From an uncultured Neglectibacter sp. (GTDB taxonomy: Bacteria > Bacillota > Clostridia > Oscillospirales > Acutalibacteraceae): a stretch of 35,826 nucleotides of DNA. The notes beneath the pieces were generated by a model. It saw only the letters and a list, made by a program, of their open reading frames with translations. It was not told the DNA's origin and did no database searches. The position numbers and the translations under genes are program-made. Of this stretch, positions 191-35,760 are shown piece by piece. The DNA lies in the NCBI GenBank assembly GCA_946554335.1, contig CAMNSA010000019.1:1-35826 (forward strand), written 5' to 3'. Positions within the stretch are counted from its first letter, which is position 1, and every line of letters starts with the position of its first letter.

Positions 191-239
191 CTTTATCCAA
201 CCATCTAATGTCCAACATCTAATAACTGCCATCTGACAA
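191..239 (-). repeat. Heptanucleotide array at anti-sigma gene 3' end
   Basis: Read on the minus strand, seven consecutive 7-mers follow each other: TTGTCAG, ATGGCAG, TTATTAG, ATGTTGG, ACATTAG, ATGGTTG, GATAAAG. The third unit supplies the TAG stop codon of the anti-sigma gene, and the first two encode its last residues. The first two units nearly match the array at the end of azlC (TTGTCAG ATGTCAG). Confidence 0.7.
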
Positions 240-4032: not shown

Positions 4033-4109
4033 TGGTCCGAGTGGCGAGACTTGAACTCACGGCCTCTTGACCCCCAGTCAAGCGCGCTACCAGCTGCGCC
4101 ACACCCGGA
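4033..4109 (-). tRNA. tRNA-Pro (anticodon GGG)
   Basis: The minus strand folds as a full cloverleaf. The acceptor arm TCCGGGT pairs with ACTCGGA (one G-U pair), and a D arm with AGCTGGTAGC follows. The anticodon stem CTTGA/TCAAG holds the loop CTGGGGG, giving anticodon GGG. The T arm contains GTTCAAGTC, and a CCA end is encoded. Decodes CCC and CCU. It has its own strong promoter and terminator. Confidence 0.95.
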
Positions 4110-4347: not shown

Positions 4348-5073
4348 TTGGGAAGCAGACGCACTGTTTTGCTGCGCGGGGCCCGGGATGGGGCGCCCAT
4401 CGCCGTGGGCTATTTTGTGGTGGCCTTTACCCTGGGCTTCGCCGCGAAAAACGCGGGATTTTCCCCTGTGCAGGCCATGGTGGAAAGCCTTTTGAACAAC
4501 GCCTCCGCCGGAGAGTACGCAGTATTTTCCCTGGTGGCCGCCGGCGCGGAGTATTGGGAGGTGGCGGTGATGACCCTGGTGGCCAACGCCCGCTATCTTT
4601 TGATGAGCTGTGCGTTAAGTCAGAAGCTTTCCCCGAAAACCCCGCTTTTTCACCGGCTCCTTCTGGCCTTTGACCTGACGGACGAGCTGTTTGGGATCTC
4701 CATCGCTTATCCCGGGGCTTTGGATCCCTTTTACACCTACGGCGCTATGGCGCTGGCCATACCCGGCTGGGGGCTGGGCACTTTTTTGGGAGTGGCAGTG
4801 GGAAATGTGCTGCCCCTAAGGCTCGTCAGCGCTTTGAGCGTAGGTCTTTACGGGATGTTTTTGGCCATCATCATGCCCCCCGCGAAACAGGACCGGGTGG
4901 TGCTCATACTGGTGCTTCTCAGCTTCGCTCTAAGCTTTTTCGCCTCCCGTGCGCCTTTTCTCTCCGGCATTTCTCCGGGGATCAAAACCATCTGCCTTAC
5001 CGTGATAATCTCCTTTGGGGCGGCGATCGTAAAGCCGCGGGAGATCAGTTGTCAGATGTCAGTGGATGGATAA
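4348..5073 (+). CDS. azlC: AzlC: branched-chain amino acid exporter, large subunit
   Basis: A 241-residue polytopic membrane protein of the AzlC (LIV-E) family. With AzlD it forms an exporter of branched-chain amino acids and analogues. Family features are the N-terminal G-x-P-I-A-x-G-Y/F-x-x-x-x-x-x-x-G block (residues 16-30), the NARYLLM motif (about 90-96) and the DE-F-G segment (about 110-118). The start is TTG at 4348 behind GGGGAGG with 7-base spacing; no ATG or GTG fits as well. azlD follows after 45 bases. The last residues (CQMSVDG) are encoded by a heptanucleotide repeat, so the ancestral C-terminus may have been replaced. Confidence 0.92.
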   Translation: MGSRRTVLLRGARDGAPIAVGYFVVAFTLGFAAKNAGFSPVQAMVESLLNNASAGEYAVFSLVAAGAEYWEVAVMTLVANARYLLMSCALSQKLSPKTPLFHRLLLAFDLTDELFGISIAYPGALDPFYTYGAMALAIPGWGLGTFLGVAVGNVLPLRLVSALSVGLYGMFLAIIMPPAKQDRVVLILVLLSFALSFFASRAPFLSGISPGIKTICLTVIISFGAAIVKPREISCQMSVDG

Positions 5074-5076
5074 GAG
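5049..5076 (+). repeat. Heptanucleotide array at azlC 3' end
   Basis: Four 7-mers (TTGTCAG ATGTCAG TGGATGG ATAAGAG) overlap the end of azlC; the TAA stop (5071-5073) is inside the last unit. Short and degenerate, but the first two units nearly repeat the array at 226-239. Confidence 0.5.
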
Positions 5077-5118
5077 CTTTTGTTTTCAGAAGAAATTTTT
5101 GAATAGGGAGAGAGAAGC

Positions 5119-5421
5119 GTGAAAAATATCTGGATCTATATTTTGATCTCCGCTCTGGTCTCCTATCTGATCCGGGTGACCCCTCTGGTGCTGATCCGAA
5201 GAGAGATCACCAACAGGACCCTGCGCTCCTTTCTCTATTATGTCCCCTATGTCACCCTTTCCGTAATGACCTTTCCCGCCATCATGGACGCAACCTCCAG
5301 CCCTGCTGCGGGGCTGCTCGCCCTGCTTGCGGGGGCCATTCTCGCCTGGAAGGGAAAGAGCCTGTTTTTGGTGGCGGTATCCTGCTGCGCAGTGGTGTTC
5401 CTTTTCGAGCTCTTTTTGTGA
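5119..5421 (+). CDS. azlD: AzlD: branched-chain amino acid exporter, small subunit
   Basis: A 100-residue protein with four hydrophobic segments, matching the AzlD family in size. The N-terminal pattern is typical: an aliphatic helix, then TYLIR-like residues (SYLIRVTPLVLIRR), then a P-x-x-T-L/A-S-x-M-T-F-P segment (YVPYVTLSVMTFP). It is the partner of AzlC in the two-component LIV exporter. The GTG start at 5119 is preceded by AGGGAGAG. It sits directly upstream of the liv import operon but is separated from it by a promoter. Confidence 0.9.
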   Translation: MKNIWIYILISALVSYLIRVTPLVLIRREITNRTLRSFLYYVPYVTLSVMTFPAIMDATSSPAAGLLALLAGAILAWKGKSLFLVAVSCCAVVFLFELFL

Positions 5422-5510
5422 GGGCGTTCCTCCGGCTTTTGTTCACTTGCTCTAAATTTCTTAACATCAGAAAAGAATTTATTAGATATGACTGTTTCAA
5501 ATTTTTCGTT

Positions 5511-5543
5511 TGCCCTTCTTACAGGGGGGGCGTTTCTTTTTTG
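5511..5543 (+). terminator. Weak terminator-like hairpin after azlD
   Basis: TGCCC (5511-5515) can pair with GGGCG (5528-5532), followed by TTTCTTTTTTG. The stem is short and one pair is G-U, so termination here is only plausible. Confidence 0.35.
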
Positions 5544-5553
5544 CGATTTTTCC

Positions 5554-5582
5554 TTGACAAATCTGCAATTTCGCGGTATATT
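5554..5582 (+). promoter_or_regulatory. Promoter of the liv operon
   Basis: A perfect TTGACA and TATATT are separated by 17 bases, about 80 bases upstream of the livJ start. Confidence 0.85.
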
Positions 5583-5660
5583 TGCAAACAGTAGTTTTCC
5601 TTTTGAACATTAAAAATTGAAGGGAACACTTTCTAAACTTGCAAAAAGAAGGGTATCGGT

Positions 5661-6821
5661 ATGAAAAAATTTTTGAGAGCGGCAGCGCTTTTGTTAGCAG
5701 CTGTCCTGGTGTGTGCGAGCTTTGCCGCCTGCGGTTCGGCGGGGCATACAGCCAATAATACGGAATATGTGATCGGCCTGTCCGGCCCCCTGACCGGCGG
5801 TGCGGCCGTGTACGGCGTGGCGGTTCAGAATTCCGCCCAGATGGCCGTGGATGAGATCAACGCGGCCGGAGGCCTTAATGGAGTACGGTTCAAGGTGATT
5901 GCCAAGGACGACACCCATGACGCCGCCAAGGTGGCCGCCAACTACTCCTCTCTGATGGAGGAGGGGATGCAGGTGTCTCTGGGCACCGTCACCACCGCTC
6001 CCGGTTTGGAGTTTTCCAATCTTTCCAAGGAGGACAACCTGTTCTTTCTGACGCCCTCCGCCTCCGGCAACGACATCCCGAAGAACGACAACGGCTTCCA
6101 GATGTGCTTCGCCGACGGCAACCAGGGCGCTGTGGCCGCGGGCTATGTGAATTCCACGGGCCTGAAAAACATCGGCATTTTCTATAAGTCTGACGATCCC
6201 TATTCCAAGGGCATTTACGAGCAGTTCATGGAGAATCTTGACAGTTCCATCGAGACGGTGGAGGCCGTATTCACCGACGCCAACACCTCCGACTTCTCCG
6301 CGCAGATCAGCACCCTGAAGGACTGCACCTTCATCTTTATGCCCATCTATTACACGCCGGCCTCCCTGTTCATGACCCAGGCAAAGTCCATTGTAAGCCC
6401 CACCGCCACCTATTACGGCTGCGATGGCTTTGACGGCATCGAGTCCGCGGAGGGCTTTGACATCACTGCCATTCCCCAGGAGGTCACCATGCTGTCCCAC
6501 TTCAATTCCAAGGCCACCGACGGCGCCGCCGCGGAATTTGTGAAGAAGTACACGGAGAAGTATGGCGCGGATACGCTCAATCAGTTCGGCGCTTCCGCCT
6601 ATGACTGCGTCTATGCCATTTACAACGCCATGAAGGAGATCGCGGAGGGCGGCAAGGAGATCCCCGTGACCATCTCTCCCTCTGAGCTGTGCGATCTTCT
6701 CAAGGGGAAATTTACCGGCGGCTTTACCTATTCCGGCGTCACTGGCAGCGAGATCAAGTGGGAAGCAAACGGCTATGTTTCCAAGGAAGCCGTGAAATAT
6801 GTGATCAAAGAGGCAGACTGA
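5661..6821 (+). CDS. livJ: Branched-chain amino acid ABC transporter, binding lipoprotein
   Basis: A 386-residue periplasmic-binding-type receptor of the Leu/Ile/Val family. It has a lipoprotein signal peptide: K-rich start, hydrophobic core, lipobox S-F-A-A-C with the lipidated Cys at residue 24. The mature protein opens with the family hallmark IGLSGPLTGGAAVYG, followed by AVDEINAAGGLNG and DDTHDAAKVAAN. It would capture branched-chain or related amino acids at the outer membrane face and hand them to LivHM. The start ATG follows AGAAGGG. Its stop is followed by a large stem-loop before livH, which may let this gene be expressed above the rest of the operon. Confidence 0.93.
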   Translation: MKKFLRAAALLLAAVLVCASFAACGSAGHTANNTEYVIGLSGPLTGGAAVYGVAVQNSAQMAVDEINAAGGLNGVRFKVIAKDDTHDAAKVAANYSSLMEEGMQVSLGTVTTAPGLEFSNLSKEDNLFFLTPSASGNDIPKNDNGFQMCFADGNQGAVAAGYVNSTGLKNIGIFYKSDDPYSKGIYEQFMENLDSSIETVEAVFTDANTSDFSAQISTLKDCTFIFMPIYYTPASLFMTQAKSIVSPTATYYGCDGFDGIESAEGFDITAIPQEVTMLSHFNSKATDGAAAEFVKKYTEKYGADTLNQFGASAYDCVYAIYNAMKEIAEGGKEIPVTISPSELCDLLKGKFTGGFTYSGVTGSEIKWEANGYVSKEAVKYVIKEAD

Positions 6822-9792: not shown

Positions 9793-10503
9793 GTGGCATT
9801 ATTAGAGGTCAAAGATCTCGCGGTATATTATGGAGTGATTAAGGCCCTGGACGGGGTTTCTTTTACGGTGGATGAGGGAGAGATCGTTGCGCTCATCGGC
9901 GCCAACGGAGCCGGGAAAACCACCACTTTGCACACGGTGACCGGTCTGCTTCCCCCGAAAAGCGGCACAGTCACCTATCATGGGCAGGATATCACCAACC
10001 TGCCCGCCCATAAGATCGTGACTCTGGGGATCGCCCATGTGCCGGAGGGCAGGCGGATCTTCCAGCAGCTTTCCGTGCTGGAGAATTTGAAAATGGGCGC
10101 CTATACCAGAAAGGACAAGAAGGAGATCGCGGAGAGCCTGGAGCAGGTATACGCTCATTTTCCCCGGCTGAAGGAACGGAAAAACCAGGTGGCGGGCACC
10201 CTTTCCGGAGGCGAGCAGCAGATGCTTGCCATGGGCAGGGCCATGATGTCCCGCCCCAAGCTCATTGTGATGGACGAGCCCTCTATGGGCCTTTCGCCTT
10301 TGCTCGTAAAAGAGGTGTTCAAGATCATTCTGGACCTGCACAAGACGGGAGCCACCATCCTTCTCGTCGAGCAGAACGCCCAGATGGCCCTTTCCATCGC
10401 GGACCGGGCCTATGTCCTGGAAACCGGCCGCATCGTCTCCGAGGGCTCCGGCCAGGAGCTGCTGCAAAGCGACGAGATCAAGAAGGCTTACTTGGGCGGG
10501 TAG
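9793..10503 (+). CDS. livF: LivF: branched-chain amino acid ABC ATPase
   Basis: A 236-residue ABC ATPase, the second nucleotide-binding subunit of the Liv importer. It carries Walker A GANGAGKTT (from residue 36), the LivF-typical GIAHVPEGRRIFQQLSV, signature LSGGEQQM and Walker B LIVMDEPSMGLSP. The GTG start at 9793 has GGAGGGAG upstream and lies 15 bases after livG. The TAG stop is the first unit of a heptanucleotide array (10501-10535), which runs straight into the operon terminator. Confidence 0.95.
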   Translation: MALLEVKDLAVYYGVIKALDGVSFTVDEGEIVALIGANGAGKTTTLHTVTGLLPPKSGTVTYHGQDITNLPAHKIVTLGIAHVPEGRRIFQQLSVLENLKMGAYTRKDKKEIAESLEQVYAHFPRLKERKNQVAGTLSGGEQQMLAMGRAMMSRPKLIVMDEPSMGLSPLLVKEVFKIILDLHKTGATILLVEQNAQMALSIADRAYVLETGRIVSEGSGQELLQSDEIKKAYLGG

Positions 10504-10535
10504 TTGTTAGCTGTGAGTAGTTGGTTGTTAGAGAA
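10501..10535 (+). repeat. Heptanucleotide array starting at the livF stop codon
   Basis: Five 7-mers: TAGTTGT TAGCTGT GAGTAGT TGGTTGT TAGAGAA. The first TAG is the livF stop codon. The array ends exactly where the terminator stem begins. Confidence 0.8.
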
Positions 10536-10567
10536 AGCCTCTCCTTGGGAACAGGGAGAGGCTTTTA
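10535..10567 (+). terminator. Terminator of the liv operon
   Basis: AGCCTCTCC (10536-10544) pairs with GGAGAGGCT (10555-10563), followed by TTTATG. Confidence 0.8.
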
Positions 10568-10609
10568 TGTCATTTGGTTCCCCACTAACTTCCCTTGGCT
10601 CCCCTTTGG

Positions 10610-10644
10610 TAGTTGTTAGCCATTAGTAATTAGTTGTTAGAAAG
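10610..10644 (+). repeat. Heptanucleotide array
   Basis: Five in-register 7-mers: TAGTTGT TAGCCAT TAGTAAT TAGTTGT TAGAAAG. It lies in the gene-free 870-base region after livF, not directly at a gene end. Confidence 0.75.
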
Positions 10645-10664
10645 CCCTTGGCTCCCCCTTAATA

Positions 10665-10832
10665 CCCTTGGCTCTCCCTCTGGGGTGAGTACGCCCCGGT
10701 GGGGCGTTGCCACGAACTGACCGAACCGGCAGGTGAGACGCTGTCACCGTAGGTGACTGAGAGGGTAAACTTCATCTCTTTTCTACTCAACATCCCCTCC
10801 GTCAAAATCTTCGATTTTGCCACCTCCCCTTA
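10665..10832 (+). repeat. 168-bp modular hairpin repeat, copy 1
   Basis: Differs by one base (C in CTACTCAAC) from the copy at 11049-11216. It contains in order a partial CTCTCC outer arm, hairpin CGCCCC-GGT-GGGGCG, adaptor CCGAACCGGCAGGTGAGACG (10721-10740), hairpin GTCACC-GTA-GGTGAC, TGAGAGGG, a spacer, and hairpin AAAATC-TTC-GATTTT between CTCCGTC and GCCACCTC. No coding potential is credible. Confidence 0.85.
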
Positions 10833-10835
10833 ATA

Positions 10836-10958
10836 CCCTTGGCTCCCCTTGTTCCCAAGGGGAGCTGTCAGCGAAGCTGACTGAGGGGATACGGGAAAGC
10901 TTCTTACCTCTCCGTCAAAATCTTCGATTTTGCCACCTCCCCTTAGAAAAGGGGAGGC
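10836..10958 (+). repeat. Modular hairpin repeat, GGCTCCCC type
   Basis: Four successive hairpins: GCTCCCCTT/AAGGGGAGC, GTCAGC-GAA-GCTGAC, AAAATC-TTC-GATTTT, and CCTCCCCTT/AAGGGGAGG. It shares its fixed spacer with the element at 18503-18623 but has a different third hairpin. Confidence 0.8.
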
Positions 10959-11048
10959 AAGAAGGAGGGGAGCAAGGGAGAGGCAAGCGGTTTCTGCGGT
11001 TCGCTGTTTAGTTTTCCTGAAGTAAACCGAGAAGGAATTTGCAGCTAC

Positions 11049-11216
11049 CCCTTGGCTCTCCCTCTGGGGTGAGTACGCCCCGGTGGGGCGTTGCCACGAA
11101 CTGACCGAACCGGCAGGTGAGACGCTGTCACCGTAGGTGACTGAGAGGGTAAACTTCATCTCTTTTCTACTTAACATCCCCTCCGTCAAAATCTTCGATT
11201 TTGCCACCTCCCCTTA
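11049..11216 (+). repeat. 168-bp modular hairpin repeat, copy 2
   Basis: Direct repeat of 10665-10832 with a single mismatch (CTACTTAAC). Here the element continues into its closing CCTCCCCTT/AAGGG(A)AGG hairpin to about 11231, whereas copy 1 is cut off and abuts the next element. Confidence 0.85.
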
Positions 11217-11281
11217 GAAAAGGGAAGGCAAGAGGAAGTAAGCGTTCGCCGCTCCCAACAGACTGTGAAACAGTCTGTTTT

Positions 11282-11309
11282 CTAACGACTAAGCTCTAAC
11301 TTCTAACAA
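11282..11309 (-). repeat. Heptanucleotide array, reversed
   Basis: Four 7-mers in CTAANNN form (CTAACGA CTAAGCT CTAACTT CTAACAA), that is TTAG units on the minus strand. The only array here that points away from the next gene and has no upstream gene in its own orientation. Confidence 0.7.
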
Positions 11310-11329
11310 CGAATCACGGGGAGAAGGAG

Positions 11330-11358
11330 TTGATTTTCCCGCTTAGTTATGCCATAAT
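11330..11358 (+). promoter_or_regulatory. Promoter of ABC exporter-murD-rnr
   Basis: TTGATT, 17 bases, CATAAT, about 37 bases before the ATG of the exporter gene. Confidence 0.7.
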
Positions 11359-11394
11359 ATTCCTGTATGTATTTTGGGAAAAGGTAGGTTGTTT

Positions 11395-17208: not shown

Positions 17209-18333
17209 ATGATTTTTCGCGGCGCTTCTTATCTTGACGGAGACTTTCAGCTGGTGTCGGGAGATATCGAGATCGACAATGGGCGGATCCTTCGGGTGGG
17301 AAAAGAGCTTCCCTCAACGCAGGAGGAGCTGGTGATCGACTCAAAGGGATATACCATCGTTCCCGGCTTTGTGGATATCCATATCCACGGCTGTATGGGC
17401 GCGGACGCCTGCGACGGCAGCCGGGAGGCCATCGACACCATGGCCCGGTTTCTGTTGGGCCACGGGATCACCTCTTTTTGCCCCACCACGATGACCACAG
17501 GGGTGGAGGTGATCGAAAAGGCTCTGATGGCGGCCAAAGAGTGCGCGGATTCCCCCCTGGAGGACGGAGCCAGAGTGGTGGGCGTGCACATGGAGGGCCC
17601 CTTTATCTCCAAGGAAAAGAAGGGGGCGCAGCGGGAAAGCGCCATCCTGCCCCCGAACTATTCCCTTCTCTCCCGACTGCACAAAGAGAGCGGCGGGCTT
17701 GTGAAGCTGATCGCCGCCGCGCCGGAGGTGGAGGGGGCCATCGAATTTGGGGAAAGGGCCTCTGAGCTCTGCACGGTTTCAGTCGCCCATACCACGGCTG
17801 ATTACGAGATGGCAAAGAAGGCTTTTGCCCATGGCTTTACTCACGCCACCCATCTCTTCAACGCCATGACTGGCCTCAGCCACCGCGCTCCCGGGGTAGT
17901 GGGAGCGGTTTTGGACGAGCGGGATGTGACCGCGGAGCTGATCTGCGACGGGATCCATGTGCATCCCGCTGTTTTGCGCACGGTATTTCGGCTTCTGGGA
18001 GACCGGGCCGTGATCGTCAGCGATTCCATGCGGGCAAATGGTCTGGAAGAGGGGGTGCCCTTTGACCTGGGCGGCCAGCAGGTCACGGTAAAAGACGGCA
18101 AGGCCACTCTGTCAGACGGCACCATCGCGGGAAGCGTGACCAACCTGCACCAGGAGGTGAAAAACCTGGTGAGCTGGGGAGTTCCCTTCCCCCAGGCGGT
18201 AAAGGCGGCCACCCTCACTCCGGCAAAGGTCATCGGCATGGATCATGAGATCGGCAGCATCGTTCCCGGAAAGCGCGCGGATCTGCTGGTGATGGACGAC
18301 GCCCTGGAGATCGTGGGAGTTTACCGTGGGTAG
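17209..18333 (+). CDS. nagA: NagA: N-acetylglucosamine-6-phosphate deacetylase
   Basis: A 374-residue amidohydrolase that removes acetate from GlcNAc-6-P to give GlcN-6-P, feeding amino sugar catabolism or cell wall recycling. Metal and catalytic motifs are in order: HIH (H58, H60), E129 in VHMEGPF, AHTTA, THLFNAM, ICDGIHVHP and VSDSM with the catalytic Asp. Length is normal. The ATG follows AGGGAGTGG. No nagB is adjacent. Its TAG stop is the first unit of a heptanucleotide array (18331-18365). Confidence 0.95.
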   Translation: MIFRGASYLDGDFQLVSGDIEIDNGRILRVGKELPSTQEELVIDSKGYTIVPGFVDIHIHGCMGADACDGSREAIDTMARFLLGHGITSFCPTTMTTGVEVIEKALMAAKECADSPLEDGARVVGVHMEGPFISKEKKGAQRESAILPPNYSLLSRLHKESGGLVKLIAAAPEVEGAIEFGERASELCTVSVAHTTADYEMAKKAFAHGFTHATHLFNAMTGLSHRAPGVVGAVLDERDVTAELICDGIHVHPAVLRTVFRLLGDRAVIVSDSMRANGLEEGVPFDLGGQQVTVKDGKATLSDGTIAGSVTNLHQEVKNLVSWGVPFPQAVKAATLTPAKVIGMDHEIGSIVPGKRADLLVMDDALEIVGVYRG

Positions 18334-18365
18334 TTGTTAGACTTTAGATATTAGATGTTAGAAAG
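18331..18365 (+). repeat. Heptanucleotide array starting at the nagA stop codon
   Basis: TAGTTGT TAGACTT TAGATAT TAGATGT TAGAAAG: five perfect TAGNNNN units, the first being the stop codon of nagA. It mixes both unit types seen elsewhere (TAGTTGT and TAGATNN). Confidence 0.85.
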
Positions 18366-18458: not shown

Positions 18459-18493
18459 TAGCTGTTGTTTTTTAGTCGTTAGTTGTTAGAAAG
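18459..18493 (+). repeat. Heptanucleotide array
   Basis: TAGCTGT TGTTTTT TAGTCGT TAGTTGT TAGAAAG, five units in register; the second is degenerate. Confidence 0.65.
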
Positions 18494-18502
18494 GGCTTTC
18501 AT

Positions 18503-18623
18503 CCCTTCGGCTCCCCTTATTGTAAGGGGAGCTGTCAGCGAAGCTGACTGAGGGGATACGGAAAAGCTTCTTACCTCTCCGTCATGGCTTTACCATGCCA
18601 CCTCCCCTTAGAAAAGGGGAGGC
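18503..18623 (+). repeat. Modular hairpin repeat, GGCTCCCC type
   Basis: Outer hairpin GCTCCCCTTA-TTG-TAAGGGGAGC, then GTCAGC-GAA-GCTGAC, TGAGGGG, a conserved spacer, CTCCGTC, variable hairpin CATGG-CTTTA-CCATG, and closing hairpin CCTCCCCTT/AAGGGGAGG. It is nearly identical to 10836-10958 outside the first loop and the third hairpin. Confidence 0.8.
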
Positions 18624-18696: not shown

Positions 18697-18738
18697 CTAA
18701 TATCCAACATCTAGAATCTAACAACTATCATCTAAAAA
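18697..18738 (-). repeat. Heptanucleotide array at SLH-protein 3' end
   Basis: On the minus strand: TTTTTAG ATGATAG TTGTTAG ATTCTAG ATGTTGG ATATTAG. The TGA stop of the SLH gene lies in the second unit, so its last three codons are repeat-derived. The terminator follows at once. Confidence 0.75.
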
Positions 18739-20398
18739 TCAATAGATTATTCAGCGCCCGGGATGGAACGCCCAACAGCCAGAAGCCGTCTACATAAAGG
18801 GTGGAGGAGCCGCCGCCGTCCAGATTCATGGCGTCCTGGCAGCCCAGGGAGACCAGCAGAGAGGAAAGTTCCCCTAAGGTACAGTAGGCGCTGACGATCA
18901 TCAGAGAGCCGTCCTTCTTGATGCCGATGCTCACTCTTCTGGCGGAATAGGTGGTGATGTTGGGGTCGGTAAAGCCCTCCTTCTGATAGGTGGAAAGGTC
19001 TCCGTAAGCCTTCCCGGCCTTCACCAGCCGGGGTCCCGCGCCGATGGAAAGCTCCGGTGTTCCGGAGTCCAGTCCCTCATAGGTGTGAGAAAGCTCCACA
19101 AAATCTCCCACCTCACTGCCGGTAAAGAAGCTCCCTTCCTCCTGACGTTTTGCCCGCTGGGCAAGCACATAGCCCTTGGAAAGCTCCGGAATGGGAATCT
19201 CAGAGCCCTTCTTGTTCTCATATTTTGCCGTGATCTGGCCCGCCTCATCCACTTGCAGGGCGCACCAGGCGGGGAAGGCCAGATCCCGTCCCCAGTCTCT
19301 GGTAAAGACGATCCGGGTGCCGTCCGTGTTGGTCACGGGCCAGCGGTTGAAGCCCACCTCCTGCACGGTGGAAACGCTGCCGTCCTGACCGTACCGGGTG
19401 GCGGTGTACCGCAGGGCGAAGCTCTCGATGGAAAAGTTGCCCAGGGCGTCCATGGTAAAGGAGGGGCGGTCCGGCGCGTGGCCGTTATCCACGGTAAGGA
19501 CCCGCCCGTGCTTGATGATGGTGGAGTAGGGCATATAGCTGCTCATGTCGAAAAAGGCCGCGTCTACGGCGATCTTCGCGCTGCTGCGGGAAACCATGGA
19601 GGTGGCGCTTTCCCTGCCGTCCACCAGGTCGTTGCCCATGAGCACATCCGCCTGATAGAGGGCGGGGTCGAATTCCAGCGAGCAGTAGGAAACACCGTTT
19701 AGGCGCTTGCGGGTGATCTTGTAATCGTCGGAGACGCGGCTGGAGGAGAGAAAGCGGGAGAAAAGAGCCGCGGCCTCCGCACGGGTGGCCAGACCCTTCG
19801 GGCGGAAGGAGCCATCCTTGTAGCCGTTGATGATCTCGCAGCGCTGGCACAAGGCCACGCTGTCCTTCGCCCAGGAGGCGATCTTCCCGCTGTCCGTAAA
19901 GGAGGCGGAGGGAAGGGAGGGAGTGAGCTTTCTGCCCACGGCATTGGCGAAATTCGTCACCATCTTGGCAAGCTCCTGCCTTGTGATCCTGCGATTGGGC
20001 TGGAAGGTGCCGTTTTCGTAGCCGGACACCACGCCATTTTCCGCGCACCAGTTCACTGCGCTGTTATACCATTTGGAAGGAGCCACATCCTTGAAGCTGC
20101 CTCGGAAGTCAAAGGCGGAAAGCTCCTGCTTTGTCAGGACCGTCTTGGCCAGAATGTTCGCAAAGGCTCCGCGGGTCAGATACCCCTTTGGGGAAAAGGT
20201 GGTAGGAGTGGTGCCGGAGATGATGTTCTTTTCCGTCAGCTCCAGCACATAGGGGGCGTACCAGGCCCCCGGGGGCACGTCGGAAAACCCTGCCGCCTTC
20301 GCTTCCTGGGGCAGGACCGGAACCAGGAGGAGGCAGGATAACAAGAGGGAGAGAAAGCGTCTTTTTAAGTGGTGAGTGATCCTTTTTGTCTGTTTCAA
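18728..20398 (-). CDS. SLH-domain phosphodiester glycosidase (NAGPA-like), secreted
   Basis: A 556-residue secreted protein. A basic N-terminus and hydrophobic segment (residues 14-30) end in a signal peptidase-like AKA-A site (about 33-36). Three SLH repeats follow (about 37-80, 100-145, 163-208; motifs FSDVPP..WY, GSFKDV..WY, YKDGSFRPKG..TRAEAA), which anchor proteins to secondary cell wall polymers. Residues about 230-556 resemble the NAGPA/DUF2233 phosphodiester glycosidase domain, with the typical AVDAAFFD-type and C-terminal NLDGGGSSTLYV motifs. It probably acts on a wall glycan or glycolipid phosphodiester. The start is TTG at 20398 behind GGAGGAG. No convincing promoter is seen in 20399-20500. 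Confidence 0.85.
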   Translation of the reverse strand: MKQTKRITHHLKRRFLSLLLSCLLLVPVLPQEAKAAGFSDVPPGAWYAPYVLELTEKNIISGTTPTTFSPKGYLTRGAFANILAKTVLTKQELSAFDFRGSFKDVAPSKWYNSAVNWCAENGVVSGYENGTFQPNRRITRQELAKMVTNFANAVGRKLTPSLPSASFTDSGKIASWAKDSVALCQRCEIINGYKDGSFRPKGLATRAEAAALFSRFLSSSRVSDDYKITRKRLNGVSYCSLEFDPALYQADVLMGNDLVDGRESATSMVSRSSAKIAVDAAFFDMSSYMPYSTIIKHGRVLTVDNGHAPDRPSFTMDALGNFSIESFALRYTATRYGQDGSVSTVQEVGFNRWPVTNTDGTRIVFTRDWGRDLAFPAWCALQVDEAGQITAKYENKKGSEIPIPELSKGYVLAQRAKRQEEGSFFTGSEVGDFVELSHTYEGLDSGTPELSIGAGPRLVKAGKAYGDLSTYQKEGFTDPNITTYSARRVSIGIKKDGSLMIVSAYCTLGELSSLLVSLGCQDAMNLDGGGSSTLYVDGFWLLGVPSRALNNLLIFR

Positions 20399-21624: not shown

Positions 21625-21685
21625 AAAGACGAGATTTTCCCCCTCCTTTCTTTTGGAAGGAGAATTTAGCTTGGAGGTATTTACC

Positions 21686-22861
21686 ATGATTTGTCCGAAT
21701 TGCGGCAGACAGTTGCCGGACGGGGCCATGTGCCCCTGCGGCGGGACCCAGCGGCTGCTTTCATCCAACCCCGCCTTGCACGCTTTGAAATCGGTTTGGT
21801 CCTCTCCGGCCTTTCTGGCTATGGTGATCCTGAACACCGTTGCCCTGGCGCTTTCCCTGATCTCACTGTTTTCTACCGGGTCTGTGGATTACGGCGCTTA
21901 CTACTATTATGTGGAGGACGGCGGCTATCTTGTGGGCCGGGTGCTGGGCATTTTGCTGGGCAGCGTTCCCTCGATCCTGATGACCATCGGTCTGTGGATC
22001 CACTACTCCACCTGCCGTCAGATCCAGTCCGGCAATATCTCCACCGCCGGCCTTACCCTGTGGAGAGTGGCCCAGATCATTCTGGCCTGCCTGTGCGGGT
22101 TGTTGATCCTGATGCTTTTTATCCTGATGATCTTTGTCAACCCCTTTTCCTCGCGCTATTCCAATGCCTTTTATGACTTGCCCTTTGGCTCTTTCTACGG
22201 TGAGGCATTGGTACTTGTTTTCCTTATTCTGATTCTTGTCTGCGTTCTGATGCTGTGTTATGAGATCGCCTACGCGAAAACCCTGGGCAGGCTCCGCCGC
22301 ACGGCGCTCTCCGGCGTGGCGGACAACAGAGTTTCCGGCTTCGTCATCGGGATGCTCTGGTTTTTGGGCTGTGGAAGCGGCTTGATGGGGCTGATCAATC
22401 TTTTTGACATGGATACCTTCCTGGGCGGAGTTTCTTCCTGCTGCTCTGCGGCAAGTATGATCCTGCTGGCCATTCTGTTTTCCCGGTACAAGAAGCGCAT
22501 GGCTTTAGTGATGTATCCTCCGGTACAGCCGGTGTATCCTGCCGGCTACGGCGGGGCTCCCAATGCCTATCAGGCGCCGGGGGTTCCGCAAAGCTATCAG
22601 GTCCCGCAGAGCTATCCGGTGCAGCCGCCCCAGGTGCCCCAGCCTCCTGTGCCTCAAGTGCCGCAGAGCTATCCGCCTCAGACAGCGGCTCCCCAGCCGG
22701 AAGCTCCTGCTCAGGCAGCGCAGGCCCCGGTTGTGCCGAACGCTCCTCAGCCGGAGAGTTCCGTACAGGGTCCCGAGGCTCCGGTTTCTCAGCCTGAAGC
22801 AGCTCAGCCTGAGACCGTACAGCAGGACGCTGCACAGCCCCCGGAAGACGGGAATGAGTAG
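21686..22861 (+). CDS. Zinc-ribbon membrane protein with Pro/Gln-rich tail, paralog 2
   Basis: A 391-residue relative of the preceding protein. The N-terminal ribbon is C3-x2-C6-x9-C16-x-C18, followed by LLSSN and about six hydrophobic segments up to residue 285. Unlike its neighbour it ends in about 105 residues of low complexity, rich in P, Q, A and V, with three VPQSY units (about 312-345), an otherwise disordered, probably exposed tail. The ATG at 21686 has GGAGG 8 bases upstream, and a CTCCTT/AAGGAG hairpin sits just before that site. The stop (GAG TAG) falls in the first unit of a heptanucleotide array. Function unknown. Confidence 0.75.
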   Translation: MICPNCGRQLPDGAMCPCGGTQRLLSSNPALHALKSVWSSPAFLAMVILNTVALALSLISLFSTGSVDYGAYYYYVEDGGYLVGRVLGILLGSVPSILMTIGLWIHYSTCRQIQSGNISTAGLTLWRVAQIILACLCGLLILMLFILMIFVNPFSSRYSNAFYDLPFGSFYGEALVLVFLILILVCVLMLCYEIAYAKTLGRLRRTALSGVADNRVSGFVIGMLWFLGCGSGLMGLINLFDMDTFLGGVSSCCSAASMILLAILFSRYKKRMALVMYPPVQPVYPAGYGGAPNAYQAPGVPQSYQVPQSYPVQPPQVPQPPVPQVPQSYPPQTAAPQPEAPAQAAQAPVVPNAPQPESSVQGPEAPVSQPEAAQPETVQQDAAQPPEDGNE

Positions 22862-22890
22862 TTAGTAATTAGGTATTAGTCGTTAGAGAA
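22856..22890 (+). repeat. Heptanucleotide array at paralog 2 stop codon
   Basis: GAGTAGT TAGTAAT TAGGTAT TAGTCGT TAGAGAA. The first unit (also present at 10515) supplies the last Glu codon and the TAG stop of the zinc-ribbon gene. The rest of 22891-23024 holds only short C/G-rich hairpin fragments. Confidence 0.8.
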
Positions 22891-23807: not shown

Positions 23808-23849
23808 TAGCAGTTAGTTGTTAGTAATTAGCTATTAGTCGTTAGAAAG
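23808..23849 (+). repeat. Heptanucleotide array, left arm of inverted pair
   Basis: TAGCAGT TAGTTGT TAGTAAT TAGCTAT TAGTCGT TAGAAAG, six perfect TAGNNNN units, 28 bases after the hydrolase stop. Confidence 0.85.
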
Positions 23850-23857
23850 GACTTTTT

Positions 23858-23892
23858 CTAACAACCAAATTCTAACAACTAACAACTAAAGC
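23858..23892 (-). repeat. Heptanucleotide array, right arm of inverted pair
   Basis: CTAACAA CCAAATT CTAACAA CTAACAA CTAAAGC. It is an imperfect inverted copy of 23808-23849 in the same heptad register, so the two arms could form a long stem closed by TAGAAAG-GA-CTTTTTCTA. Confidence 0.8.
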
Positions 23893-24002: not shown

Positions 24003-24114
24003 CATCCAGCATCTAGAATCTAGCATCCAGCATCCAGCATCTAGAATCTAGCATCCAGCATCCAGCATCTAGAATCCAGCATCTAGAATCCAGCATCCAG
24101 CATCCAGAATCTAT
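24003..24114 (-). repeat. Longest heptanucleotide array (16 units) after serA
   Basis: Sixteen uninterrupted 7-mers on the plus strand, each CATCCAG, CATCTAG, AATCTAG, AATCCAG or the terminal AATCTAT. On the minus strand these are TAGATTC, TAGATGC, TGGATGC and TGGATTC. The first minus-strand TAG (24113-24111) is the serA stop codon. Nothing separates the units, so it is not a CRISPR array. Confidence 0.92.
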
Positions 24115-25277
24115 CGAATCACCCTGACGCGGATATTGGATTCCAGCGCCTCCAAAGCGGCGATGGCGGCCTCTGTTACCGTGCTGGAAACGTCCAGAAT
24201 AGTGTAGGCAAACTCGCCTTTTGACTTGCTCTGCATGTTTTCAATATTGATCCCGGCGTCGCCGCAGGTAGAGGTAAACAGGCCGATGGTGTGAGGCACG
24301 TTTTTGTGCAGGATACAGATGCGCTCTGTGCCCGGTTCCCGCTCCATGGAGATGGCGGGAAGGTTCACGGAGTTGACGATATTGCCCCGCTCCAGGTATT
24401 CCTTGAGCTCATCTACCGCCATCTGGGCACAGTTATCTTCGCTTTCCGGGGTGGAAGCGCCCAGGTGGGGAATGGCGATCACGTTTTCGGCCCCCAGGAG
24501 GCTGTCGTCCGGGAAATCGGTGGCATAGGCCGCCACTTGGCCGTCTGTGAGGGCGGAAAGCAGGGCGGGAGAATCCACCAGCTCGCCTCTGGCGAAATTC
24601 AAGATGCGCACGCCGTTCTTCATCTTGGCGATGGACTCGCTGCCGATCATGCCCCGGGTGTCGCCGGTCAGCGGCAGGTGCAGGGTGATATAGTCGCAGT
24701 TTTGATAGATCTCATCCAGTGAACGGGCGTGATTGACGGCTCTGGAAAGATTCCAGGCAGAATCTACCGAAAGGTAGGGGTCAAAGCCATAGACCTCCAT
24801 GCCCAGACTCTTAGCGGCGTTTGCCACCAGAATGCCGATGGCGCCCAAGCCCACAACACCCAGGGTCTTTCCCTTGATCTCAGGGCCTGCAAAGGCGCTT
24901 TTGCCCTTTTCCACCAGCTTGCTCACTTCCGCTCCCTTGCCCTTGAGGGTCTTGACCCAATCCATGGAGGCGGCGATCTTACGGGAGGTGAGGAACAGGG
25001 CGCACAGCACCAGTTCCTTCACGGCGTTGGCGTTGGCTCCGGGGGTGTTGAACACCACGATGCCCTGTTTCGCGCACTCCTCGATGGAGATATTGTTGAC
25101 GCCTGCTCCGGCGCGGGCAATGGCCAGCAGCTCCTTGTTAAACTCCATCTCGTGCATGGAGGCGGAGCGCACCAGGATCCCTTCAGGGGAATCCATTTCC
25201 GTGGAGAAGCTGTAATCCTCTCCCAGGCGGTCGGTTCCGATGGGGCTGATCTTATTCAGGCATAAAATCTTGTGCAT
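24111..25277 (-). CDS. serA: SerA: D-3-phosphoglycerate dehydrogenase
   Basis: About 388 residues. It oxidises 3-phosphoglycerate to phosphohydroxypyruvate with NAD, the first step of serine synthesis. Visible features are the N-terminal substrate region (RAGAGVNNI), NAD fingerprint GLGAIG (about 143-148), LHLPLT, the catalytic Arg in NFARGELVD, and His in IPHLGAST. A C-terminal ACT domain (about 315-388) suggests allosteric control, typically by serine. It lacks the long intervening domain of Bacillus-type enzymes. I prefer ATG 25277, since ATG 25286 abuts the AAAGG ribosome site. It follows serC by 41 bases in one operon. The stop codon is part of a 16-unit repeat. Confidence 0.93.
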   Translation of the reverse strand: MHKILCLNKISPIGTDRLGEDYSFSTEMDSPEGILVRSASMHEMEFNKELLAIARAGAGVNNISIEECAKQGIVVFNTPGANANAVKELVLCALFLTSRKIAASMDWVKTLKGKGAEVSKLVEKGKSAFAGPEIKGKTLGVVGLGAIGILVANAAKSLGMEVYGFDPYLSVDSAWNLSRAVNHARSLDEIYQNCDYITLHLPLTGDTRGMIGSESIAKMKNGVRILNFARGELVDSPALLSALTDGQVAAYATDFPDDSLLGAENVIAIPHLGASTPESEDNCAQMAVDELKEYLERGNIVNSVNLPAISMEREPGTERICILHKNVPHTIGLFTSTCGDAGINIENMQSKSKGEFAYTILDVSSTVTEAAIAALEALESNIRVRVIR

Positions 25278-25318
25278 CAGGATCATCCTTTCTCAAAGTG
25301 AACTTCTCAGGGAGAAGC

Positions 25319-33612: not shown

Positions 33613-35352
33613 ATGGAACTGGTAAACATCAAGATCAACGGCGTATCCTATGAAGTACCCGCGAATGCTACCATTCTCGAGGCTGCCCGGGAAGCCGGAA
33701 TTGATATTCCCACCCTTTGCTACCTGAAGGATATCAACCAGATCGGCGCCTGCCGGATGTGCATGGTGGAGGTCAAGGGCGCAAGAAGCCTGGTGGCCGC
33801 CTGCGTGTATCCTGTCAACGAGGGGATGGAGGTCCTTACAAACTCCCCCAAGGTACAGGAATCCAGAAAGATGACTCTGGAGCTACTGCTTTCCGTTCAC
33901 GAGCGCAAGTGTCTGACCTGTGACCGCAGCGGAAACTGCGAGCTGCAGAAGCTGTGCAACGATATGGGAATCGAGGAGGAGGACCGCTTCCAAGGCGTTA
34001 TGCCTGCCGGCAGCAAGGACGACTCCACCCTGTATCTGAGAAGAAACAACGCGAAGTGCGTGCTTTGCCGCCGCTGTGTGGCCGCTTGCCAGAATCAGCA
34101 TGTTTCGGTGATCGGCGCCAATAACCGCGGCTTCGATACGGAGATCGGCTGCGCCTTTGAGCAGCCTCTGGGCTATGTTTCCTGCGTGGCCTGCGGCCAG
34201 TGTATCGTCAGCTGCCCAACCGGCGCATTGACGGAAAAGGACAACACCCAGGAAGTGATCGACGCCATCAACGATCCCGAGAAGATCGTCATCGTCCAGA
34301 CGGCTCCCGCCGTGCGCGCGGCTCTGGGCGAAGAGTTCGGCCTGCCCATCGGCACCAATGTGGAGGGCAAGATGGCTGCCGCTCTGCGCCGCCTGGGCTT
34401 TGACAAGGTGTTTGATACCGATTTCGGCGCGGATATGACCATTATGGAGGAGGCCAACGAGTTTATCTCCCGTGTGAAGAACGGCGGCACTCTTCCCATG
34501 ATTACCTCCTGCTCTCCCGGATGGATCAAGTTCTGCGAGCACTACTATCCGGATCTCATCGACAATCTTTCCACCTGCAAGTCTCCTCAGAATATGACCG
34601 GCGCTCTCATCAAGACCTGGTATGCCCAGAAGGAGGGCATCGATCCCAGCAAGATCGTCTCTGTCTCGGTGATGCCCTGCACGGCCAAGAAGTTTGAGAT
34701 CATGCGTGAGGATGAGAATGCCGCCGGGCTTCCCGATGTGGACATCAGCCTGACCACCCGTGAGCTTGCCAAGCTGATCAAGAAGGCTCAGCTCAACTTC
34801 AACCGTCTGCCGGACGAGAAGTTTGACGACGCCATGGGCGTATCCACCGGCGCTGCCGTGATCTTCGGCGCCACCGGAGGCGTGATGGAGGCCGCTTTGC
34901 GCACGGCCGCCGACCTGCTGGAGGGCAAGGATCTGGAGTCTGTGGATTACAAAGAGGTCCGCGGCGTAGAAGGCTTCAAGGAGGCCGTCTACAAGGTAGG
35001 CGGCATGGATGTGAAGGTCGCGGTAGTCAGCGGCCTGAAGAATGCCGACGCTCTGCTGAAGAAGGTGCGCGCGGGAGAGGCGGATTATCACTTCATCGAA
35101 GTGATGTGCTGCCCCGGCGGCTGTGTCAACGGCGGCGGACAGCCTATTCAGCCTTCCAGTGTGCGCAGCACCATCGACCTGCGTGCCGAGCGTGCCAAGG
35201 CCCTTTACAACCAGGACAAGAATATGCCCCTGAGAAAGAGCCACCAGAACCCCGTGGTGCAGAAGTGCTACGAGGAGTTCCTCACCGAGGGCCCCGGCGG
35301 TCACACCGCCCACAAGATCCTGCACACCTCTTATGTGAAGAGAGGCAAATAA
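33613..35352 (+). CDS. hndD: HndD: catalytic [FeFe] hydrogenase subunit
   Basis: A 579-residue subunit (HydA of trimeric enzymes). Domains in order are a plant-type [2Fe-2S] ferredoxin (C36, C47, C50, C64), a His-ligated [4Fe-4S] (H96, C100, C103, C109), two [4Fe-4S] motifs (CVLCRRCVAAC; CVACGQCIVSC) and the H-cluster domain. The latter has L1 TSCSPGW (C300, S301), L2 MPCTAKK (C356) and L3 EVMCCPGGC (C500, C504), then the small-subunit-like tail. L1 has Ser where many enzymes have a second Cys. It makes H2 from NADH plus ferredoxin electrons. I chose ATG 33613 because GAGAGGAG is 9 bases away; GTG 33607 is only 3 away. Confidence 0.95.
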   Translation: MELVNIKINGVSYEVPANATILEAAREAGIDIPTLCYLKDINQIGACRMCMVEVKGARSLVAACVYPVNEGMEVLTNSPKVQESRKMTLELLLSVHERKCLTCDRSGNCELQKLCNDMGIEEEDRFQGVMPAGSKDDSTLYLRRNNAKCVLCRRCVAACQNQHVSVIGANNRGFDTEIGCAFEQPLGYVSCVACGQCIVSCPTGALTEKDNTQEVIDAINDPEKIVIVQTAPAVRAALGEEFGLPIGTNVEGKMAAALRRLGFDKVFDTDFGADMTIMEEANEFISRVKNGGTLPMITSCSPGWIKFCEHYYPDLIDNLSTCKSPQNMTGALIKTWYAQKEGIDPSKIVSVSVMPCTAKKFEIMREDENAAGLPDVDISLTTRELAKLIKKAQLNFNRLPDEKFDDAMGVSTGAAVIFGATGGVMEAALRTAADLLEGKDLESVDYKEVRGVEGFKEAVYKVGGMDVKVAVVSGLKNADALLKKVRAGEADYHFIEVMCCPGGCVNGGGQPIQPSSVRSTIDLRAERAKALYNQDKNMPLRKSHQNPVVQKCYEEFLTEGPGGHTAHKILHTSYVKRGK

Positions 35353-35365
35353 AAAGCTGTGCTGT

Positions 35366-35393
35366 TAGTTGTCAGTGTTTAGCTGTTAGAAAA
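35366..35393 (+). repeat. Heptanucleotide array after hndD
   Basis: TAGTTGT CAGTGTT TAGCTGT TAGAAAA, 13 bases after the hndD stop and running into the terminator stem. Confidence 0.75.
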
Positions 35394-35420: not shown

Positions 35421-35476
35421 TAGTTGTTAGTTATTAGTTGTTAGATACTGGATTCTAGATGCTGGATATTGGATAG
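35421..35476 (+). repeat. Heptanucleotide array, mixed unit types
   Basis: Eight units: TAGTTGT TAGTTAT TAGTTGT TAGATAC TGGATTC TAGATGC TGGATAT TGGATAG. It passes from the TAGTTGT type into the TRGATNY type found after serA. Confidence 0.85.
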
Positions 35477-35502
35477 GCCGTCCTTGACCTCCTTGTTTCA
35501 CT

Positions 35503-35760
35503 CCTTGGCTCTCCCTTTGGGGTGAGTACGCCCCGGTGGGGGGAAGATTGCCGGTGGCAATCGTTCTGACCCGACCGAGCCGGCAGGCGAGACCGTTGCC
35601 ACGAACTGTTCTACGCTTCCGCTCCGGTCGTTGCTGGGCATGCCCCACTGGGGCATAGCAACCGAGCCGGCAGGCGAGACCGCTGGTCTCCGGTGGAGAT
35701 CGTTCAGCGCTGACCGAACCGGCAGGTGAGACGCTGTCACCGAAAGTGACTGAGAGGGTA
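35503..35760 (+). repeat. Expanded modular hairpin repeat with three adaptor units
   Basis: Begins and ends like the 168-bp repeats (CTTGGCTCTCCC ... GTCAC/GTGAC, TGAGAGGGTA) but carries the adaptor CCGA(G/A)CCGGCAGG(C/T)GAGAC three times (35575, 35662, 35714). Each copy follows a different hairpin: GATTGCC-GGT-GGCAATC, TGCCCC-ACT-GGGGCA and GGTCTCC-GGT-GGAGATC. The last 66 bases of the window hold a truncated GGCTCCCC-type element (arms CCCCTTG/CAAGGGG). No gene is seen in 35477-35826. Confidence 0.8.

Follow-up and report, generated by a model that had tools for sequence, protein, structure and literature searches.

Arrays of a heptanucleotide with the core TTAG are scattered through the intergenic DNA of three genomes of one genus and point inwards from the edges of the spacers that hold them: read on the strand that carries TAG, their 5' ends frequently lie over the stop codon of the adjacent gene, and their 3' ends never do. 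These arrays may well be the outer-end modules, i.e., inverted and imperfect terminal repeats, of short non-coding elements that disperse among the spacers of the genome, a reading in which we have moderate confidence. The window from which the analysis starts, i.e., the whole stretch of 35,826 nucleotides, is contig 19 of the 37 contigs of genome G000 (2.53 Mb).

Arrays were located by a simple scoring of how a T-T-A-G core recurs at 7-nt spacing (threshold score 14), a scan that is biased to TTAG and under-counts TCAG, CTGG and other heptamers, and genes were called with a simple hexamer script. The sample read from G000 comprises 826 kb, about one-third of the genome with the window included; G013 and G015, whose assemblies run to hundreds of contigs, were each read in part, and the pooled layout counts cover 214 arrays from the three genomes. 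In the window, the pattern (TAGNNNN)x3+TAG with up to two mismatches matches 54 times, compared with 0.56 expected from dinucleotide shuffles, and the 826 kb of G000 contain 97 arrays where about 0.2 are expected by chance. The same scan returned no array in one Markov copy of the 826 kb and 10 in the reversed sequence, while 20 Markov copies of the G000 intergenic DNA gave four arrays in total; among lags of 4–14, only 7 and its multiple 14 stand out. No such periodicity was found in a small sample of nagA- and serA-adjacent spacers from other genomes of the genus (93 spacers, 20 kb). The arrays are genome-wide in G000 and recur in two other genomes of the genus; they exceed random DNA and are not confined to one contig, the two points on which the preliminary description had let its case stand or fall. 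A scan of the window against Rfam at gathering thresholds gave no match at the arrays. Its sole match is a tRNA, tRNA-Pro(ggg), at 4033–4108 on the minus strand (Rfam match at 4036–4108).

The 14 arrays originally listed for the window are given below; 13 of them score at least 14, and the list stands except for the entry at 5049, a short TCAG-type run with a score below 9.

191..236, minus strand: degenerate array; overlaps the 3' end of the minus-strand gene 219–1262.
5049..5073, plus strand: weak TCAG-type run at the end of gene 4369–5073; below the scan threshold.
10501..10531, plus strand: array whose first TAG is the stop of the livF-like gene 9793–10503.
10610..10640, plus strand: second plus array of the spacer 10504–11394.
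11282..11313, minus strand: array closing the spacer 10504–11394.
18331..18361, plus strand: array whose first TAG is the stop of nagA (17209–18333).
18459..18489, plus strand: second plus array in the spacer of the 18331 array; one unit has TTGT for TTAG.
18697..18742, minus strand: array closing the spacer of the 18331 and 18459 arrays; overlaps the stop of the minus-strand gene 18728–20344.
22856..22886, plus strand: array at gene 21671–22861, whose stop is the TAG at 22859–22861, within the variable part of the first unit.
23808..23845, plus strand: array forming the left end of a compact 83-bp convergent pair.
23858..23889, minus strand: array forming the right end of the 83-bp pair with 23808..23845, with a 12-bp core between them.
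24003..24114, minus strand: with 16 intervals the longest array of the window; supplies, with its first TAG, the stop of the phosphoglycerate-dehydrogenase-like gene 24111–25286 (minus strand).
35366..35389, plus strand: array 13 nt past the stop of the [FeFe]-hydrogenase gene 33613–35352.
35421..35472, plus strand: second plus array there; its TTAGNNN units pass into CTGGATNC units.

The units of the longest array, 24003–24114, are CTAGATGC, CTGGATGC and CTAGATTC. A second array type with CTGGATGC/CTAGATTC units is seen in the window at 24003–24114 and 35445–35472 and at loci L065, L067 and L068; such arrays are partly fused head-to-tail with TTAGNNN arrays and form a separate class in clustering.

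Within the unit, TTAG is near-constant, as the scan selects for it, and the NNN letters are variable with the positional consensus TTG, ATT, ATA, TCG. In G000, array length is exactly four intervals in 59 of 94 cases, and the sequence 3' of the arrays is often A-AAGG. None of the 214 arrays lies inside a called gene. On the TAG strand, the 5' end faces a gene stop in 133 arrays and overlaps the stop codon in 56 of these (G000 17/60, G013 27/54, G015 12/19), whereas the 3' end faces a gene stop in 98 and overlaps it in none (0/51, 0/32 and 0/15, respectively; Fisher P about 7e-17). A start codon is faced by the 5' end in 75 of the 208 arrays with a called 5' gene and overlapped by none. Of the 35 spacers that carry both orientations, 32 have every plus array before the first minus array (G000 17/20, G013 11/11, G015 4/4). 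The 5' ends at gene edges and this convergent order together mean that the arrays point inwards from the spacer edges. Their orientation does not follow transcription, a possibility rejected on the 30 sense and 24 antisense arrays at codirectional junctions.

Ten convergent pairs with a core of at most 70 bp have a total length of 83–134 bp, three of them, in G000, being exactly 106 bp long. Three compact pairs have a common type of hairpin core, CAAGGGAAAGGGC followed by its near complement and ending in TTGACCTTCT, and longer pairs enclose other dispersed repeats. The NNN letters differ between left and right arrays. Distinct classes of left and right ends were rejected, as a division into two classes gave fewer mixed pairs than expected; with three and four classes P was 0.07 and 0.02, values on which no main claim rests. 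Paired arrays are the minority: the 136 array-bearing spacers of the three genomes comprise 86 with a single array, 15 with several of one orientation and 35 with both, and the 101 spacers with one orientation only argue against an element that simply has two ends. Hidden partners were looked for in 75 single-array spacers, just four of which proved to contain another 7-periodic stretch. Visual inspection of the sequences flanking 28 pairs showed no target-site duplication, and in the sampled parts no carrier gene of a parent or autonomous transposon was recognised by eye between facing arrays.

Other repeats accompany the arrays. A dispersed repeat, CTTGGCTCTCCC...GAGCTGTCAnCGAAGnTGACTGAG, is mixed with arrays in the window (cores at 10862–10888 and 18529–18555; related stretches at about 10660–11170 and 35490–35760), and the strict core of this family, searched in 29 genomes of the genus, matches G000 alone. 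A hairpin element, GAGCTGTCA..TGACTGAG, was considered as an explanation for the arrays and rejected: it too matches only G000 of the 29 and therefore leaves those of G013 and G015 unaccounted for. In G013, a different dispersed repeat, TGTCATCCTGAGG...GAAGGATCTCG, lies between arrays (L136–L155), with a variant in G015 (L157, L158). At G000:C7:85770-85985, three plus arrays 67 bp apart are each followed by half a hairpin, with one minus array last, as if new copies began at the loop of the previous hairpin.

On the preferred reading, convergent array pairs would flank a hairpin or another dispersed repeat as the core of an element, and such elements would enter or replace spacer DNA by means of some enzyme, the many unpaired arrays being probably truncated or decayed copies. 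An element end that falls within the last codons of a gene would be tolerated, since a TAG that recurs every 7 nt halts translation after at most three units, whatever the frame. Such tolerance would make the stop logic a feature that permits landing, or a lucky consequence of the unit, and not the reason for the arrays.

A simpler origin is slippage, in which the polymerase slips by 7 nt in spacers and leaves microsatellites of the LSSR/STRR kind without any mobility. The single array in most array-bearing spacers (86/136) and the uniform (TTAGTTG)n runs of a Chitinophagaceae metagenome-assembled genome agree with it; moreover, the long repeats of many bacteria are most often heptamers, for which slippage has been proposed (PMC4679880, PMC4692102). 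We nevertheless regard slippage as rather unlikely, since the units are heterogeneous and often in one order (TTG-ATT-ATA-TCG), length clusters at four intervals, flanks recur, pairs converge, and 5' and 3' ends behave differently.

The preliminary description had understood the arrays as cassettes that place stops in all frames. Its arithmetic of the 7-nt step is borne out: stops occur in all three TAG-strand frames of 172 of the 214 arrays, compared with 2–6 % of matched spacer pieces, and in 11 of the 14 listed for the window (all except 191, 5049 and 35366). The other strand, for which stops had likewise been claimed, has them in all frames in 159 of 214 arrays and in 11 of the window's 14 (all except 5049, 10501 and 18697), yet no 3' end lies over a gene stop (0/98). 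On the TAG strand the stops are put to use. In the 56 arrays that overlap a stop codon, the gene stop is a TAG of the array in 44 (unit 1 in 29, unit 2 in 11 and unit 3 in 4), and the remaining 12 genes use a different stop, within the array or close to it; TAG terminates 45 of the 56 array-overlapped genes compared with 112 of 708 genes of the G000 sample.

Individual genes illustrate the exchange of stops. The nagA gene ends GVYRG-TAG at its array, and TAA or TGA terminates all 25 readable homologues from the genus (three of 28 were unreadable), 12 of them exactly after VYH. The phosphoglycerate-dehydrogenase-like (serA-like) gene ends VRVIR-TAG; of its 26 homologues in the genus one was unreadable, and the other 25 comprise 23 with TAA or TGA and two with TAG. 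The livF-like gene reaches the very end of its family profile before the array TAG, with a score below the family cut-off. Protein tails differ by at most three residues from those of homologues in the sampled genomes in 13 of 16 comparisons, which involve 15 of the 56 genes (the others are −10, +4 and +5); the comparisons use hits of at least 50 % identity aligned within 25 residues of the end and thereby favour conserved tails. The array thus re-terminates most such genes near their former end.

That the arrays are selected as stop cassettes, and kept at gene ends against readthrough and frameshifted ribosomes, is nonetheless clearly unlikely. The stops that they supply to 44 of 56 overlapped genes, in all three frames and far above the level of the control pieces, are what such selection would require, but the layout is left unexplained: stops are nearly as frequent on the reverse strand, yet none of the 98 stop-facing 3' ends overlaps a stop, and the 75 arrays that face starts stand where stops are useless. 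Furthermore, the stop comes from unit 1 much more often than from unit 2 or 3 (P about 1e-5), a preference that random insertion frames alone would not give and that could reflect selection that keeps tails short, or a targeting of sites close to the stop. The GGGAATC repeats of Xanthomonas, which are alike in layout (PMC4692102), have a unit without a stop codon.

Array sites turn over between relatives. Among 84 gene junctions common to G000, G013 and G015, 18 carry arrays, 15 of these in one genome only, and most array sites thus differ between relatives. The array-bearing spacer is the longer one at 13 of the 15 single-genome junctions, where the alignments are too diverged for clean borders. 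Three junctions have arrays in two genomes; position and orientation differ in two of them, and the third has its arrays in the same orientation and nearly the same position after contig reversal, so that some arrays may be inherited.

The distribution is patchy. Strict (TTAGNNN)x3TTAG matches number 86 in G000, 211 in G013 and 115 in G015, and none is found in the other 22 of the 25 genus genomes in the genome-wide array test (four further members, G040–G043, lie outside it). The strict pattern occurs in one of 15 genomes of the order, as a single match, and a TTG-specific form in three of 391 genomes sampled from the class, again as a single match in two of the three. A longer exact pattern gave 21 stretches in a named collection. 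Nine and eight of these come from the Clostridia metagenome-assembled genomes S21_Bin8 and SRR14862904_bin.6, whose counts and listed positions are identical to those of G013 and G015; one stretch each belongs to the Bacteroidota members Bacteroidia ES-bin-35, Capnocytophaga periodontitidis, Chitinophagaceae RYN_299 and Prevotellaceae RUG14468. A Prevotellaceae genome, G047, has five arrays in 400 kb, too few for use, and one of their 3' ends touches a gene start. In viral contigs, 34 stretches (L072–L105) match TAGTTGTTAGNNNTTAGNNNTTAG, several of them with long (TTAGTTG)n runs.

The layout recurs in a second phylum, Bacteroidota. In 293 kb of RYN_299 there are 19 arrays, 12 of the 13 stop-facing ones begin at most 7 nt from the stop, 3' ends that face a stop overlap it in 0 of 13, and spacers with both orientations have plus before minus in seven of seven; five spacers hold a single array. 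Upstream of a gene read by eye as guaA, RYN_299 has a 101-bp array-terminator-array. At this site the close relatives G442 and G444 have about 260–315 bp of other sequence between the gene end and the motif GGAAAACAG, which is shared with some change, and a third relative, G443, is also without TTAG arrays. At three further syntenic junctions the relatives have other heptamers at the same gene edges, or none; the former are TTAGACG, TAAGTGG, TCAGTGA or GTGATCA, and GARAACT, the non-TTAG units being read by eye. The orthologous spacer at L214:12703-12822 and its counterparts in L285, L286 and L287 contain three kinds of heptamer, TTAGTTG, GARAACT and GTGATCA, and the terminator between the arrays is kept in three of the four species. 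A change of heptamer around a conserved terminator looks like turnover of the unit in place as much as insertion, and a single fixed mobile-element model is weakened by a layout that outlives its unit sequence in Chitinophagaceae.

These spacers bear on the view that the arrays are arms of quasi-palindromes around terminators, matched to each other by template switching or selected as RNA structure. Several heptamer types symmetric about a conserved terminator in the Chitinophagaceae relatives (non-TTAG types by eye), and terminator-like hairpins between three of seven RYN_299 pairs, are in its favour. Such hairpins lie between only 3 of 17 pairs in G000, for which a terminator cassette was rejected on this count, and between none of four in G015, a frequency no higher than in array-free spacers (82/318 in G000); moreover, the NNN letters differ from left to right, and most array-bearing spacers lack a partner array altogether, which makes the quasi-palindrome view highly doubtful for the arrays as a whole.

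Several kinds of dispersed repeat invite comparison. STRR is a name for heptanucleotide repeats, MITE ends are closely matched repeats, and REP/BIME are dispersed palindromes near gene ends, in opposite orientations, that are moved by RAYT (Y1) enzymes. The arrays resemble REP/BIME in gene-end dispersal and opposite orientations, but no Y1 transposase was found in G000 or G013 and one in G015, and a RAYT/Y1 mover was rejected on these counts. DDE_Tnp_1, also considered, was not found in the three array genomes. The MITEs RUP and NEMIS/Correia (PMC2229807) and MITEAba12 (PMC6382973) are dispersed elements of about 100–200 bp with inverted ends, and RUP, the 155-bp NEMIS and MITEAba12 have stops in all frames like the arrays. 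One trait of MITEs is seen here, presence or absence at orthologous sites (arrays in one genome at 15 of 18 array junctions; one filled site). As to inverted ends, pairs converge (32/35) and can be compact (83–134 bp), but 101 of 136 spacers have a single orientation. The arrays are unlike MITEs in that the ends are heptamer arrays with differing NNN letters and most spacers are one-ended; by eye, neither a target duplication (28 pairs) nor a parent element (sampled parts) was recognised.

Heptanucleotide repeats (LSSR/STRR, TAACTGA, GGGAATC) are a further parallel: like them, the arrays consist of 7-nt tandem units above chance and are intergenic, present at many loci and patchy. The TAACTGA repeats of Beggiatoaceae, cyanobacteria and Bacteroidetes (PMC4679880) share the 7-nt period, the intergenic position, a patchy occurrence across phyla and stops in all frames; forward TAACTGA heptamers are stated to lie at the ends of ORFs because they give stops in each of the three frames, some sets overlap these ends, and the complement of the unit, TCAGTTA, has the T-Y-A-G-NNN form of the units here. 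In contrast, they lie mostly upstream of start codons in the Guaymas strain, are defined by a single unit sequence, and in the text read have no convergent pair architecture, one inverted repeat being noted (PMC4679880). The GGGAATC and GGGGA(C/T)T heptamers of Xanthomonas and Nostoc (PMC4692102) have heterogeneous units, mostly four, convergent pairs (70 and 75 in two Xanthomonas species) and a position nearer the 5' ORF (28 nt) than the downstream ORF (160 nt) in Xanthomonas, and the same strand rule is given there for each of the three organisms examined, including Nostoc. They differ in being G-rich, with a quadruplex as explanation; the TTAG arrays have the same layout without G-tracts, so the quadruplex reason cannot be general. 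Xanthomonas repeats also lie mostly between the same genes in both species (PMC4692102), whereas the arrays here are mostly at differing sites. The statement that no family with this stop logic had been described concerned Clostridia, for which no TTAGNNN arrays were found in the open-licence papers searched; for other lineages, TAACTGA is in print (PMC4679880). Heptamers with all-frame stops are thus already published, and the TTAGNNN arrays in Clostridia are a variant of such repeats. No work that joins such heptamer families by layout was found in these open-licence papers.

A lead to an enzyme that might make or move the arrays came from a survey of reverse transcriptases (RTs). The survey comprised 51 RT rows from 29 genomes of the genus, with 45 loci fetched and scanned; PADLOC covered five RTs (those of the three array genomes, G022 and G005), and the rest were judged by BLAST and motifs. 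G000, G013 and G015 have one RT each, all three matching PADLOC RT_Ec107-like best and carrying a [YF]CDD active site and NAXXH, whereas the RTs of G022 and G005 are type III-A and type II-A (PADLOC). No other RT among the 51 rows is close to the three, a stray NAXXH string appearing in two loci. Among the 25 genomes tested for both arrays and RT, the Ec107-like RT is present only in the three that bear arrays; a distribution of 3/3 with and 0/22 without has a chance of 1 in 2300, a figure uncorrected for relatedness and for the trial of three families. G015 looks close to G013, a closeness that their RTs, 42 % identical, do not follow. In G000 the Ec107-like retron RT lies at L290:4590-6125 (contig 8, 14.6–16.1 kb; ORF 4752–5855). 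An msr-msd-like inverted-repeat ncRNA precedes it (about 4603–4745), with a second copy downstream (about 5945–6105).

Such an RT could make or move the arrays, e.g., by extending or capping DNA ends with repeats. According to a review, retron-Eco5 (Ec107) took the place of a 34-bp intergenic palindrome in E. coli (PMC6868368), and a preprint describes DRT10, a bacterial RT that makes tandem-repeat DNA with a short realignment motif (PMC12632851). Even so, a role for the RT is very unlikely on present evidence: it is an association, it comes from the second of three families tried, and G013 and G015 look closely related. Retron msDNA was rejected as the source sequence, with only 14–15-nt matches and no msr-msd copy elsewhere in 826 kb, and no array lies within the 9–11 kb around the three retrons. 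A tblastn search with the RTs found nothing in 1.35 Mb of other loci, in which the Chitinophagaceae genome is represented by only a small part, and no retron RT relative was confirmed in the viral contigs scanned.

A wider idea, and a long shot, is that TTAGNNN (Clostridia, Bacteroidota), GGGANTN (Xanthomonas) and TCAGTTA (Beggiatoaceae) are one phenomenon: repeat caps that a repeat-making enzyme, perhaps an RT such as that of the Ec107-like retron, would add to broken DNA ends, 5' to 3' in the direction away from genes and with about four steps of 7 nt. If capping were true, one end would give a single array flush with a gene border, both ends joined would give a convergent pair, and a unit that bears TAG would bring about harmless re-termination.

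Returning to the reading of the arrays as element ends, its meaning lies in the layout. Heptamer repeats are known from unrelated bacteria without an accepted function, and the arrays here have a definite anatomy, which recurs in another phylum and, by a published description, in Xanthomonas and Nostoc (PMC4692102). It is this layout that explains how dispersed DNA can land on gene ends, such as those of nagA and serA, without damaging them.
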